This document shows positions 3,141 through 11,730 of a stretch of DNA of 64,000 nucleotides, one piece after another. The notes under the pieces were generated by a model. That model saw nothing but the letters and a program-made list of their open reading frames with translations. It did not search any database and was not told where the DNA came from. This DNA comes from Nonlabens spongiae (GTDB lineage Bacteria; Bacteroidota; Bacteroidia; Flavobacteriales; Flavobacteriaceae). The first letter of the stretch is position 1. Each line of letters begins with the position of its first letter. The stretch spans positions 806,001 to 870,000 of the forward strand of contig NZ_CP019344.1 in assembly GCF_002117125.1 (NCBI RefSeq). The letters run 5' to 3'. A program made the position numbers and the translations under genes.

Positions 3141-3592
3141 GGGATTAGTGGATTAGTGGATTAGGGATTAGGGAAAAAATCATTTTCTAGCTAGAACTGT
3201 TTTTCTCAAACTAGATAACATTTTAGTGATTTCAGATAGCTGTCGCCTATTCTCTTCATTTTGATCCATCGAAATGTACTTTCTTCTGTATGCTTTAGTT
3301 GAAGCTGATACACATTCATTTGCTGAATAGATGGCGTGATTTAAATGCTTGACAAATTGTGCGTCACTACCAGGGTATCCTTCCGCAATATTTAGGGCAA
3401 TTGAATCAGAAGCTCTTCTAAATTGAGAACTCAAGGCATACAATTCTTTTTTTGGAAACTGTTTAGTCAACCCATCAACTATTTCAGCAAAATCCATCGC
3501 TTTGTGATAGACTTGTAGATCCTCAAACTTAAAATGATATACACTTTTCATCTCTCAAAGATACTAATGCCAAATACCTAATACCTAATGCC
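3141..3592 (-). repeat. Element 1: inverted 7-8-nt word arrays around a four-helix-bundle gene
   Basis: The left arm (3141-3173) is four tandem words of the type GGATTAG(T). The right arm (3563-3592), read on the opposite strand, is GGCATTA, GGTATTA, GGTATTT, GGCATTA. The arms are therefore inverted and share one word, with the four-helix-bundle gene (3180-3551) between them. In the paa transcript they could pair into a long imperfect stem with the ORF in the loop. The palindrome at 3599 follows at once. Seen directly: words, orientation and positions. Inferred: RNA pairing. Confidence 0.8.
3180..3551 (-). CDS. Four-helix-bundle protein, S23/IVP family, type A (element 1)
   Basis: A 123-residue protein with the hallmarks of the four-helix-bundle family known from ORFs inside 23S rRNA intervening sequences: FEDLQVYHKAMDFA at the N-terminus, FPKKELYALSSQFRRASDSI, NIAEGY, and ECVSASTKAYRRKYIS before a last basic helix. 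It forms type A with the genes at 4131-4508 and 11315-11674. It sits between paaI and paaJ in operon orientation, inside inverted word arrays. Family members are small, helical and oligomeric, and their biochemical role is not settled. Nothing suggests a part in phenylacetate chemistry; it looks like the coding core of an inserted element. Confidence 0.88.
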   Translation of the reverse strand: MKSVYHFKFEDLQVYHKAMDFAEIVDGLTKQFPKKELYALSSQFRRASDSIALNIAEGYPGSDAQFVKHLNHAIYSANECVSASTKAYRRKYISMDQNEENRRQLSEITKMLSSLRKTVLARK

Positions 3593-3616
3593 GGTTACGC
3601 TTTCGCGAAAGCGTAA

Positions 3617-4033
3617 TCACTCCCACTCTTCACTTGTTCTATAAACCACTCCCTTAAAAAGTGCCACCAGCTCCTCGCCTCTTTTTACTTCAACGATATT
3701 GAATCCAACTTTGGTTTTGGTTTTATCCAGAGTGCATTCGGCGGTAATGTAATCGCCTTTTTCTAAAGCCTCAATATGGTTGATACTGGTTTCAATACTT
3801 ACGGCATATTTACCATGCGTATTTGAAGTGAAGCCGAACGCCGTATCAGCTAAAGCATAAGTGATACCACCATGAGCCTTTCCCATGCTATTCAACATTT
3901 CTGGCCTAATGGTCATTCCCAGCTTTACTCTACCTACTTCAACCGAAATAATCTCTATTCCCAACCAACTTGAATACGGGTCAAGAGAGAGCATTTTGTG
4001 TGGAATATCTTTTCCTTTTATAAGTTTACTCAT
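3617..4033 (-). CDS. paaI: Hotdog-fold hydroxyphenylacetyl-CoA thioesterase PaaI
   Basis: A 138-residue single hotdog-domain protein. It has the PaaI signature NSMGKAHGGITYALADTAFG, with HGG at the helix start and the conserved Asp of ADTAF, the usual catalytic acid. PaaI hydrolyses ring-hydroxylated or dead-end phenylacetyl-CoA esters and frees trapped CoA. Length and position fit: the paa thioesterase lies between paaH and paaJ. A perfect palindrome (3599-3613) ends 3 bases before its stop codon. Elements 1 and 2 flank it, so its transcript segment would lie between two potential hairpins. Confidence 0.87.
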   Translation of the reverse strand: MSKLIKGKDIPHKMLSLDPYSSWLGIEIISVEVGRVKLGMTIRPEMLNSMGKAHGGITYALADTAFGFTSNTHGKYAVSIETSINHIEALEKGDYITAECTLDKTKTKVGFNIVEVKRGEELVALFKGVVYRTSEEWE

Positions 4034-4046
4034 GTGAAAATAGTTG

Positions 4047-4603
4047 TTGAGTATTTGAGTCTTGTAGTATTTGAGTAGTTATTTTTTGATGAAACTAATC
4101 CCTAGTGGTTCATACAACTATGAATTAAAACTATTTATCCAAACTTCGCCTTAAAGCCGATATCATTTTGCCAATTTCAGTAAGACTTTTTCTTTTCTCT
4201 TCAAATTGTTCCTACATAATATAATTTCGATAATAGGCTTTTGTGTTCCAAGTCACACATTCATGACTACTTTCCCAAGCCATTTTTAGATAACGATTAA
4301 AGTTTGCATTAGTACTTCCGTAACCTTCTGAAATGTTTGCGGCAATGGAATCTGCTGCTCTAGCAAACTGTGATGACAATCTGTACATCTCTTTCTTCGG
4401 GAAAGTAGCCGTAATCTGATCAATTTTTTCTCCAAAATCCATCGCTTTGTGATACACCTTAAGATCTTCAAACTTAAAGTGATAATCGCTTTCCAATTTC
4501 TTTACCATTTTTGATGTTGTGTTTTACCCTACACTTCCATAACAATCAGAGACACAAATACTGATTAACTCATACACTCACGGACTCAATGACTCAAAAA
4601 CTA
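4047..4603 (-). repeat. Element 2: inverted 8-nt word arrays around a broken four-helix-bundle gene
   Basis: The left arm (4047-4080) repeats TTGAGTAT-like words with period 8. The right arm (4567-4603), read on the opposite strand, gives TTGAGTCA, TTGAGTCC, GTGAGTGT, ATGAGTTA, the same word inverted. The right arm runs into the stop codon of paaH (TAG at 4601-4603). Between the arms is a type A four-helix-bundle gene with an internal amber codon. Between the left arm and that gene is about 50 bp of non-repetitive sequence. Confidence 0.78.
4131..4508 (-). pseudogene. Four-helix-bundle protein, type A, interrupted by an in-frame TAG (element 2)
   Basis: The frame starts at 4508 with a typical type A N-terminus (YHFKFEDLKVYHKAMDFGEK, then FPKKEMYRLSSQFARAADSI and NISEGYGS). 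It meets TAG at 4212-4214 (codon 99). The same frame then continues EQFEEKRKSLTEIGKM and ISALRRSLDK to a second TAG at 4131. This matches the last helix of the intact type A copies (NRRQLSEITKMLSSLRK; MRKILIELAKMIKNLRK). One base change has therefore removed the final helix from an otherwise intact gene. A truncated 98-residue product could still be made, or the amber could be read through; recent inactivation is the simplest reading. Confidence 0.85.
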
Positions 4604-10225: not shown

Positions 10226-10262
10226 ATCAATGAATATTTTCAGTTAGTTAAACAAACAAATT

Positions 10263-11228
10263 TTATACAGCTTGTTTTTTGCGTTCATTTTGTTTCTGAG
10301 CGTATGCCGTAGCTGCTTCACGAACCCACGCGCCATTCTCCCACGCATTGCGACGGGCATCAAGACGAGATTTATTCATTGGACCATGACCTTTTACCAC
10401 TTGCCAGAATTCCTCCCAATCGATCTCACCAAAATCATAGTGACCAGTTTCTTCATTCCATTTTAGATCATTATCTGGTATAGTAAGGCCTAAAATATCT
10501 GCCTGCGGAACGGTTTGATCTATGAACTGCTGGCGCAATTCATCATTAGTCTTGCGCTTTAGTTTCCATTTCATGGATTGCTCGGTGTGTGTACTGGCCG
10601 CATCAGTAGGACCTAACATCATCAGTGAAGGCCACCACCAGCGATTCAAGGCGTCTTGAGCCATTTGCTTTTGCTCAGCACTACCGTTACACAAACTTAA
10701 CATGATCTCATATCCTTGTCTCTGGTGAAAACTCTCCTCTTTACAAACGCGCACCATCGCACGGGCATAGGGGCCAAAACTGGTATTACACAATGGAACC
10801 TGGTTGATAATGGCTGCACCATCGACTAACCAGCCTATTGCGCCTATATCAGCCCATGTAAGTGTGGGATAATTAAATATGGATGAATATTTTGCTTTTC
10901 CTGAGTGCAGGTCTTCATAAAGTTGTTCACGCGATATGCCGAGAGTTTCACAAGCACTGTACAAATACAAACCATGCCCTGCTTCATCCTGAACTTTAGC
11001 CAGCAATGCCACCTTACGTCTCAATGAAGGCGCACGTGTGATCCAGTTCCCTTCAGGTAGCATTCCCACGATTTCAGAATGAGCATGCTGCGAGATCTGA
11101 CGGATGTGCGTTTTCCTGTATTTCTCAGGCATCCAGTCCTTTGGCTCGATTTTCTCGTCTGCCGCGATTTTTGCGTCAAATTGTTGTTCTAGGCTGGTGG
11201 TATCTAGGTGTTTGTCTCTGTGTTCCAT
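10263..11228 (-). CDS. paaA: Phenylacetyl-CoA 1,2-epoxidase catalytic subunit PaaA
   Basis: A 321-residue ferritin-like di-iron protein and the catalytic subunit of the ring-1,2-epoxidase, which uses O2 and electrons from PaaE. Di-iron ligand motifs are seen as E82-A-G-H85 in KVQDEAGHGLY and E165-S-F-H168 in CKEESFHQRQGYE. The C-terminal part (WWWPSLMMLGPTDAASTHTE, then the EEFWQVVKGHGPMNKSRLDA segment) is typical of PaaA. It is full length. Element 6 separates it from paaE upstream; paaB follows 37 bases downstream. Confidence 0.95.
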   Translation of the reverse strand: MEHRDKHLDTTSLEQQFDAKIAADEKIEPKDWMPEKYRKTHIRQISQHAHSEIVGMLPEGNWITRAPSLRRKVALLAKVQDEAGHGLYLYSACETLGISREQLYEDLHSGKAKYSSIFNYPTLTWADIGAIGWLVDGAAIINQVPLCNTSFGPYARAMVRVCKEESFHQRQGYEIMLSLCNGSAEQKQMAQDALNRWWWPSLMMLGPTDAASTHTEQSMKWKLKRKTNDELRQQFIDQTVPQADILGLTIPDNDLKWNEETGHYDFGEIDWEEFWQVVKGHGPMNKSRLDARRNAWENGAWVREAATAYAQKQNERKKQAV

Positions 11229-11270
11229 TTTGTCAATTGTTTGCCATTCGATATTTATTAATGTTTTGAA

Positions 11271-11730
11271 GCACTTGGCACTTAGCGCTTAGCAATTTGC
11301 CAGATTTGCAAATACTAGTCTAACTTTTTTCTGAGGTTCTTGATCATTTTGGCAAGTTCAATCAATATTTTTCTCATCTGTGATTTAGCCTGATTATCAA
11401 TATACCCTCTTCTATATGCTAAAGTTGAACAACCAACGCATTCTCTTACCGATCCCTCTGCCATCTTCAAATATCTATTGAATTGCTTATCTGTATCTCC
11501 ATGACCCTCTGCAATCGTTAATGAAATTCCGTTTGATGCTCTTGAAAATTGCGATGCCAAACTATACAATTCATGTTTAGGAAAACTGCTAATCGCATCA
11601 TGAACCAAATCGCTAAATTCCAAAGCTTTTTGATACACTCTCAAATTTTCAAAGTTGAACTCATTCATATGCAATACTGAATTTTATTTCATCTCCCAGC
11701 CAAGTGCTAAGTGCCAAGTGCCTAGTGCTA
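11271..11730 (-). repeat. Element 6: inverted 7-nt word arrays around a four-helix-bundle gene
   Basis: The left arm (11271-11301) reads GCACTTG, GCACTTA, GCGCTTA, GCAATTT with period 7. The right arm (11698-11730), read on the opposite strand, gives GCACTAG, GCACTTG, GCACTTA, GCACTTG. The pair GCACTTGGCACTTAGC is identical in both arms in inverted orientation. The right arm ends in the paaE stop codon (11728-11730). Confidence 0.82.
11315..11674 (-). CDS. Four-helix-bundle protein, S23/IVP family, type A (element 6)
   Basis: A 119-residue type A protein with FENLRVYQKALEFSDLVH, FPKHELYSLASQFSRASNGI, TIAEGHGDTD and ECVGCSTLAYRRGYID, followed by a basic last helix. It is the intact counterpart that shows what the broken copy at 4131-4508 has lost. 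It is the first four-helix-bundle gene met by RNA polymerase, between paaE and paaA, in operon orientation. Its role is unknown; see the element entries for context. Confidence 0.88.
   Translation of the reverse strand: MHMNEFNFENLRVYQKALEFSDLVHDAISSFPKHELYSLASQFSRASNGISLTIAEGHGDTDKQFNRYLKMAEGSVRECVGCSTLAYRRGYIDNQAKSQMRKILIELAKMIKNLRKKLD

Follow-up and report, generated by a model that had tools for sequence, protein, structure and literature searches.

The stretch analysed here, called the window, comprises 64,000 nucleotides (nt) of the Nonlabens spongiae genome (NZ_CP019344.1, positions 806,001 to 870,000) and carries a paa operon on its minus strand, running from paaE to paaJ between window positions 12804 and 1917. 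The gene names are those of a first-pass annotation and agree with the protein sequences by eye. The gaps paaE/paaA, paaB/paaC, paaC/paaD, paaG/paaH, paaH/paaI and paaI/paaJ (E/A to I/J below) each contain one small gene in operon orientation, encoding an intervening-sequence protein (IVP) of 98–123 amino acids (aa) in the open reading frame (ORF) list of the window. The first-pass annotation had placed six four-helix-bundle genes in these gaps and assigned them to the protein family known from intervening sequences of 23S rRNA. All six were located, on the minus strand, and profile searches placed all six proteins above the curated cut-off of PF05635 (23S_rRNA_IVP) and likewise above that of TIGR02436. 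Each gene is flanked by an array of a short word, and the array on the opposite side is its reverse complement, with each element having its own word of 6–8 nt. The paa gaps that bear an element are 387–567 nt long. Arms were scored by local alignment of the 5' arm against the reverse complement of the 3' arm, and the cassettes formed by gene and arms are composed as follows.

11699..11752, minus strand: E/A 5' arm, word GCACTTG (by eye), period 7; alignment score 48; overlaps the end of paaE
11315..11674, minus strand: IVP gene of the paaE/paaA gap; PF05635 at E 9.9e-26, TIGR02436; the listed start is TTG, with an ATG at 11668
11246..11300, minus strand: E/A 3' arm, inverted copy of the word array; arm alignment and inverted repeat pair
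9903..9957, minus strand: B/C 5' arm, word AAGNNN (by eye), period 6; score 54; extends past the paaB stop
9549..9902, minus strand: IVP gene of the paaB/paaC gap; PF05635 at E 1.7e-10, TIGR02436 at 4e-16
9435..9548, minus strand: B/C 3' arm, grown to a 24-nt tandem array; direct repeat, aligned core 9485–9542
8596..8642, minus strand: C/D 5' arm, word TTGAAN (by eye), period 6; score 43; three inverted repeat pairs
8239..8583, minus strand: IVP gene of the paaC/paaD gap; PF05635 at E 2.2e-11; stop codon partly shared with the listed paaD start (ATGA)
8184..8228, minus strand: C/D 3' arm; arm alignment; in the opening codons of paaD as listed (ORF 7685–8242)
6171..6212, minus strand: G/H 5' arm, word NGATNNN (by eye), period 7; score 40
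5816..6169, minus strand: IVP gene of the paaG/paaH gap; PF05635 at E 4.7e-12; AlphaFold2 model matches 2RLD and 2GSC
5768..5809, minus strand: G/H 3' arm; arm alignment; codons 2–15 of the listed paaH ORF 4601–5812
4555..4603, minus strand: H/I 5' arm, word TGAGTNNN (by eye), period 8; score 39
4212..4508, minus strand: IVP gene of the paaH/paaI gap, shortened by a TAG; PF05635 at E 6.9e-24; the frame continues to 4131
4041..4088, minus strand: H/I 3' arm; arm alignment
3564..3592, minus strand: I/J 5' arm, word GGTATTA (by eye), period 7; score 28
3180..3551, minus strand: IVP gene of the paaI/paaJ gap; PF05635 at E 1.5e-28
3141..3171, minus strand: I/J 3' arm, word GGATTAGT (by eye), period 8; arm alignment and direct repeat

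Against dinucleotide shuffles, the arm duplexes reach z values of −6.6 (B/C), −5.6 (C/D), −4.6 (E/A), −4.3 (G/H), −4.0 (H/I) and −1.5 (I/J), so that the I/J arms are weak by that measure. The C/D and E/A arm pairs were also picked up directly by a repeat search of the window. The 3' arms of G/H and C/D fall within the listed downstream ORFs and would thus be translated as an N-terminal extension of PaaH and PaaD, while the TAG in the H/I gene leaves an IVP of 98 aa. Within window positions 1–14000 no Rfam family was found at E 0.1, and of ten near-perfect hairpins elsewhere in the window none was an ORF-less word hairpin of the cassette type by eye, except the B/C array.

The elements had been presented as belonging to one catabolic operon, which is accurate for these six, but the genome contains 12 PF05635 genes in total. 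The six outside paa are also co-oriented with their neighbours and occupy the groES/groEL, fadB/fadA, fadA/acyl-CoA dehydrogenase, sdhA/sdhB, ffh/folD and atpA/atpG gaps (neighbours read from their proteins). None of the 12 copies is located in rRNA; all 12 lie between protein-gene ORFs. Within the genus, IVP matches were found in 21 of 23 genomes, with 0 to 15 per genome and none at all in two (G018 and G021). The genus set comprises 129 elements, four matches on one 13.3-kb contig (G003:C2) having been removed as duplicates (133 to 129). On this contig (L094), IVP matches near both ends are oppositely oriented and repeat those of the main paa operon, which may point to an artefact of assembly.

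A wider sampling of the family Flavobacteriaceae yielded IVP matches in 45 of 60 genomes, two of which belong to this genus, and copy numbers across the genus and family samples reach 15–16 per genome. A third set, the named loci, consists of the best 80 of at least 583 confirmed loci; by title, these are mostly from Bacteroidota, with others from Ignavibacteriae, SAR324, Chloroploca, Acidobacteria, and proteobacterial and clostridial metagenome-assembled genomes. No rRNA was detected at gathering threshold in 20 distant IVP loci. Gene context was scored where both flanks were callable, which left out 5 of the 129 genus copies and 5 of the 80 named ones. On this basis, both flanking genes share the strand of the copy in 123/124 genus cases, in 70/75 named loci and in 28/28 family cases (the best copy of each of 28 other genera). 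Given that 42 of 50 adjacent non-IVP ORF pairs of the window are on one strand, random placement and orientation would produce about 42% co-oriented copies. The sole genus exception (G011:C1:206186) has opposite-strand ORFs on both sides and a paaJ match covering residues 4–24 only; it is suspected to be an insertion in paaJ. IVP cassettes are a class spread over the family and beyond, not a paa-specific feature, which extends the earlier proposal that the plan of the intervening sequences is repeated here as a family of elements.

Presence and absence among relatives had been proposed as a check on that proposal, and the same six genes are not always found. Occupancy in the genus is 2/22 for E/A, 0/21 for A/B, 19/21 for B/C, 12/21 for C/D, 11/20 for G/H, 6/19 for H/I and 10/17 for I/J, as determined by tblastn with the window IVPs, a search that a very divergent IVP could escape. 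This variability indicates that the cassettes are optional parts of the operon. Several IVP-free paa gaps contain other DNA (0.5 to 5.5 kb), and paaH and paaI can overlap where the H/I gap has no IVP. At three loci (L050, L051 and L056) the paaA/paaB gap harbours gene-free word arrays that resemble, by eye, those of the neighbouring B/C element. In genome G003 (L049:6180-7082), a single open frame of 301 aa runs from the C/D IVP into PaaD, an apparent natural fusion.

The two arms of an element match each other specifically, at least on average, in agreement with the inverted word arrays first noticed around each gene. For the 129 genus elements the mean score of own pairs is 36.7, compared with 22.5 for the best mean among 10,000 permutations of partners and 21.3 for a direct-orientation control. 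Own pairs also prevail in the family sample (mean 29.9, permuted maximum 24.5) and in the named loci (35.0 against a crossed mean of 20.1). For single genus elements, 78/129 score above 95% of crossed pairs and the own partner is uniquely best in 31/129, a low number because orthologues with the same word compete. A comparison of arm complementarity with shuffled sequence had been proposed as a check, and genus duplex energies do beat dinucleotide shuffles, with a mean z of −2.7 and 77/129 elements below −2.

The words follow a small set of periods. Genus arms that score above 99% of dinucleotide shuffles (132/258) have periods of 6, 7, 8 or 12 exclusively, and 23 of 25 site labels show a single period (6 and 12 pooled; some labels with one scoring arm), the mixed sites being C/D (6 and 7) and I/J (7 and 8). 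Among orthologues with near-identical IVPs (normalised bits of at least 0.8), crossed and own arms score alike (38.7 vs. 38.6; 39.7 vs. 40.0), whereas same-site pairs with diverged IVPs (normalised bits 0.2–0.7) score 36–39.5 for own arms and 24–29 for crossed ones. This pattern indicates that what the arms share is mainly the word, and that both arms switch word jointly, together with the IVP type. The word has a strand polarity: in elements with an arm score of at least 30, the sense strand of the 5' arm has more G than C in 76/91 genus and 13/15 family elements, and the mean G-over-C skew is 0.39 and 0.60, respectively, compared with 0.11–0.13 in IVP ORFs. At two sites, the paaH/paaI gap of L052 and window positions 9435–9548, the 3' arm has grown into a long near-perfect tandem array and the 5' arm is short.

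The protein of the G/H cassette, the one modelled, gave an AlphaFold2 prediction with a pLDDT of 94.5 whose best structural matches are 2RLD and 2GSC, consistent with an S23-type four-helix bundle. These two PF05635 relatives have five chains each, and a Xanthomonas protein of the family is described as a toroidal homopentamer (PMC4990558). By analogy, the cassette IVP is likely a five-subunit ring. In the named loci, AG units (counted in phase, with single missing units allowed) recur at 7 nt at least four times in 98/160 arms, compared with 7–13 arms at each of the other spacings between 4 and 12. At 7 nt, arms most often have five AG units, as is the case in 44/160 named arms and in 6 of the shuffled ones. 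Five words and five subunits suggest a reading similar to that of TRAP (trp RNA-binding attenuation protein).

Regarding their evolution, the IVP tree (124 sequences, five of the 129 IVPs having been left out as shorter than 85 aa; 123 columns, many forks unsure) tracks the insertion sites, with 18 label changes vs. 87 when labels are shuffled. One clade joins the B/C, C/D and G/H copies; another joins those of I/J, H/I, E/A, an echA/paaY gap and one other copy. This clustering suggests that copies have spread among the gaps of one operon. The gene is under purifying selection, with a median Ka/Ks of 0.07 and a maximum of 0.49 in 49 close ortholog pairs, which were chosen for similarity (normalised bits of at least 0.75, no inner stop, unsaturated sites). 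Unlike B/C elements lie between similar flanks in three of the five genome pairs compared: in G001 vs. G009 and G022 vs. G019, identity falls at the paaB end and remains lower through paaC, and in G005 vs. G008 paaC is back mostly above 85% and the C/D gap differs too. No recently transposed pair was found among the 129 genus copies, the closest true copies at different sites being 78% identical. Apparent near-identical pairs at different sites were rejected, as they came from the same paa gap mis-split in clustering; these sites were merged by hand.

Gene-less counterparts occur in the atpA/atpG gap. Two of the 23 genus gaps were unreadable; the remaining 21 comprise six with an IVP cassette, 13 with a compact word hairpin (62–71 nt, by eye), one longer relic and one single arm. 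Outside the genus, 88 gaps were read (28 loci and 60 fetched) from 127 family genomes with atpG, the 39 left out being nearly all the least similar. Seven of the 88 contain a gene, in all cases matching atpA/atpG IVPs at E 2e-47 or better, and two more are remnant-like (E 0.019 and 0.002). Thirteen gaps were too short or too long for folding; among the other 75, z is below −2 in 63, and stability favours the sense strand 55 vs. 19 by energy and 53 vs. 22 by z. For the word hairpins among them, defined by an AG-chain rule, z is below −2 in 27/28, with the sense strand favoured 22 vs. 6 by energy and 18 vs. 10 by z. What is conserved at atpA/atpG is an RNA stem-loop, whereas the type of sequence that forms it is exchanged. 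Strong stem-loops at this gap in most sampled genera (L255–L342), of many unrelated sequences and with the RNA strand favoured, are a conserved structure in themselves. A weaker version is seen in IVP-free paa gaps, where z is below −2 in 16/39 and the sense strand is favoured 18 vs. 20 by energy and 25 vs. 14 by z. In genome G012, a fadB/fadA cassette (L066) and a gene-less atpA/atpG hairpin (L238) have by eye much the same TATAGAATATGGA-like word, which hints at gene-bearing and gene-less partners.

The reading proposed here, to which a probability of roughly 0.4 is assigned, is that the six genes represent copies of a single type of cassette whose protein, likely a five-subunit ring, is predicted to bind the word arrays at about one word per subunit. 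The cassettes are read as intercistronic relatives of the rRNA intervening sequences. In the nascent mRNA, the C-poor, AG-bearing 5' array would wrap the ring, in the way that (G/U)AG repeats wrap TRAP, and the 3' array, as the complement of the 5' array, would provide a competing stem. The gap could thereby alternate between two forms, a closed stem-loop and an open one bound by the ring, tuning the next gene and the IVP itself. The cassette would have descended jointly with the rRNA intervening sequences, and may be maintained partly as a selfish passenger and partly since an intercistronic stem-loop is useful at such positions. A bolder generalization, considered unlikely, would make the cassettes widespread intercistronic ribonucleoprotein switches. 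Each would encode a private pentameric ring that recognizes its own 7-nt AG-bearing word, present in five copies beside the gene, and opens or closes the gap; protein and word would co-diversify into a specificity code, and the rRNA intervening sequences would be an offshoot of this class.

Several observations weigh against the ring-and-word reading. The strongest, as far as a purely RNA-based version is concerned, is that the word stands on opposite strands in the two arms, which a ring that binds mRNA does not need. Pairing under selection in mRNA would tolerate G.U more than A.C; in the arm alignments G.U does not exceed A.C (159 vs. 216 in the genus, 70 vs. 70 in the named loci and 12 vs. 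18 in the family), and greater stability of the sense strand is seen in only 50/129, 29/80 and 10/28 elements, respectively. With neither wobble nor a sense-strand preference, the competing stem is not visibly selected; on these tests an RNA stem was rejected as the selected feature of ORF-bearing copies, and the first-pass inference that the arms pair in RNA finds no support as far as selection is concerned. The binding of the arrays by the IVP is itself a prediction, and the putative ring of five is carried over from relatives of these proteins. AG chains of at least three units are present in only 41 and 39 of the 129 genus arms on the two sides (GA in 54 and 58), and the paa copies, with periods of 6, 7 and 8, also follow the rule of AG at 7 nt less clearly. 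Own arms exceed 99% of crossed pairs only in 30/129 genus, 4/28 family and 16/80 named elements, and word and IVP type may change together simply through co-inheritance of a block. A unit-permutation test gave a register signal in 28/89 elements at 0.05 or below (mean 40.0 vs. 33.6 permuted), although this test is biased towards the observed order since the segment is taken from the best alignment; such a signal is not required by a model in which only words are read. At atpA/atpG, 47 non-word hairpins are sense-favoured as well (33 vs. 13 by energy), so that the preference is not specific to word hairpins, for which it is also weaker by z than by energy.

Some of these points would be expected if the cassettes were mobile elements at the DNA level, with the arrays as terminal inverted repeats bound by the IVP on DNA, the ORF-less hairpins as non-autonomous relatives, and co-orientation as the outcome of read-through expression and selection. 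REP/REPIN with RAYT and MITEs (miniature inverted-repeat transposable elements) with transposons are the model for such relatives. This explanation accommodates the symmetric arms without wobble preference, the exchange of gene and arms as a block, the ORF-less forms, and the related copies in neighbouring gaps. It is nevertheless judged unlikely: copies at operon ends are nearly absent (2/75 '+>-' contexts in the named loci, and in the genus 0/124 with a same-strand gene upstream and an opposite-strand gene downstream), the genus copies include no recent transposed pair, and no catalytic domain was matched in the IVP ORFs; at E 0.001, Pfam and NCBIfam searches with the six ORFs gave no transposase or recombinase family. 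A retro-mechanism with a reverse transcriptase was rejected, as PF00078 was not found in 15 of the 23 genus genomes.

The first-pass annotation itself favoured a different model, in which the arms form a stem in the mRNA, the IVP message is excised by RNase III, and the segmented transcript sets the stoichiometry of the Paa proteins. The rRNA intervening sequences are described as operating in this manner (PMC4990558), the genome has one RNase III gene, arms pair better than shuffles, the ORF-less atpA/atpG hairpins are strong with the RNA strand favoured, and some register signal exists, with the bias already stated. This model is regarded as quite improbable. In the ORF-bearing copies neither the wobble nor the strand test favours it; moreover, the arms of close orthologues are interchangeable with no loss of complementarity, and two of the six paa 3' arms are within listed ORFs. 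It has also to be considered that the arms could be quasi-palindromes kept alike by replication slippage and template switching, a by-product that the IVP does not touch. The unit-length expansions of the window B/C array and the L052 H/I array are in line with this, as is the absence of a wobble preference, but the period of 6, 7 or 8 is common to both arms and retained at most sites despite word changes, the same AG/7-nt rule is found in loci of several phyla, and the word has a strand polarity. A mere by-product is therefore held to be very unlikely.

Returning to the proposed ring-and-word cassette, its closest known counterparts are the 23S rRNA intervening sequences with an S23p/IVP ORF of Leptospira and Coxiella, with which it shares the protein family, complementary ends, sporadic occurrence and co-orientation with the host transcript. 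ORF-less forms of rRNA intervening sequences are known, and the gene-less versions at atpA/atpG resemble them. The Coxiella element is reported to measure 428–444 nt (PMC4990558), similar to the element-bearing paa gaps. The same source describes rRNA intervening sequences as the replacement of a small hairpin loop by an extended stem-loop, and S23p/IVP proteins as lacking a known function. In contrast, the cassettes here are hosted by series of protein genes, they end in arrays of 6–8-nt words, up to 15–16 of them can occur in a genome, and the ORF-bearing copies show no selection for RNA pairing of their ends. The cassette is set apart from the rRNA elements because of the host gene and the results on stem selection, despite its similar plan.

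The TRAP fold is unrelated to the IVP fold. The proposed likeness to TRAP and its (G/U)AG repeats (PMC4027176) lies in a ring protein with one repeat per subunit, regularly spaced AG units and a competing stem; the differences are a likely number of five subunits rather than eleven, a spacing of 6–8 nt, binding that is predicted here, and a separate gene and word in each cassette. Another four-helix bundle is bAvd, an accessory protein of the diversity-generating retroelements. One of the six window proteins matches it below cut-off (bAvd 20 bits vs. 40, DivGenRetAVD 25.8 vs. 80), and the other five have no match; unlike in those retroelements, reverse transcriptase PF00078 is present in 8/23 genus genomes, compared with 21/23 for IVP. 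REP/REPIN elements with RAYT are similar in being intercistronic palindromes with ORF-less forms, but here no transposase-like protein was matched, and word and gene vary by site.

The protein family and the rRNA elements are already known. Among the titles and abstract beginnings of the matches listed in a search of the open-access literature (subscription papers and preprint servers being outside its scope), neither IVP cassettes between operon genes nor word arrays were found. In the parts of the sources consulted, an IVP gene appears among the differentially expressed genes of Flavobacterium psychrophilum (PMC5787105), IVP genes situated between those of guanylate kinase and nicotinate mononucleotide adenylyltransferase are filed under 'phage elements' (PMC5524665), and the figure of a CRISPR survey includes 23S rRNA IVP among the proteins near CRISPR arrays (PMC10910872). 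Surveys of this kind might mistake the word arrays for CRISPR arrays.

With hundreds of natural cassettes, each with one IVP and one word, the function of IVP would become a question of recognition that lends itself to direct testing, and in the atpA/atpG gap gene-bearing hairpins are naturally replaced by gene-less ones within one conserved operon. If the ring does read the word, an overlooked layer of intercistronic control would exist in Bacteroidota and beyond, and the rRNA intervening sequences would gain an mRNA counterpart.

Two further features of the operon were recorded. The paaD/paaG gap (window 7059–7646) contains an opposite-strand ORF of 195 aa, lipoprotein-like by eye. In addition, a perfect palindrome, CGCTTTCGCGAAAGCG, recurs in the paa operon at window positions 3598–3613, 6415–6430 and 7967–7982; among the 23 groES/groEL gaps read in the genus, 18 contain an exact copy and three others a copy with a single change.

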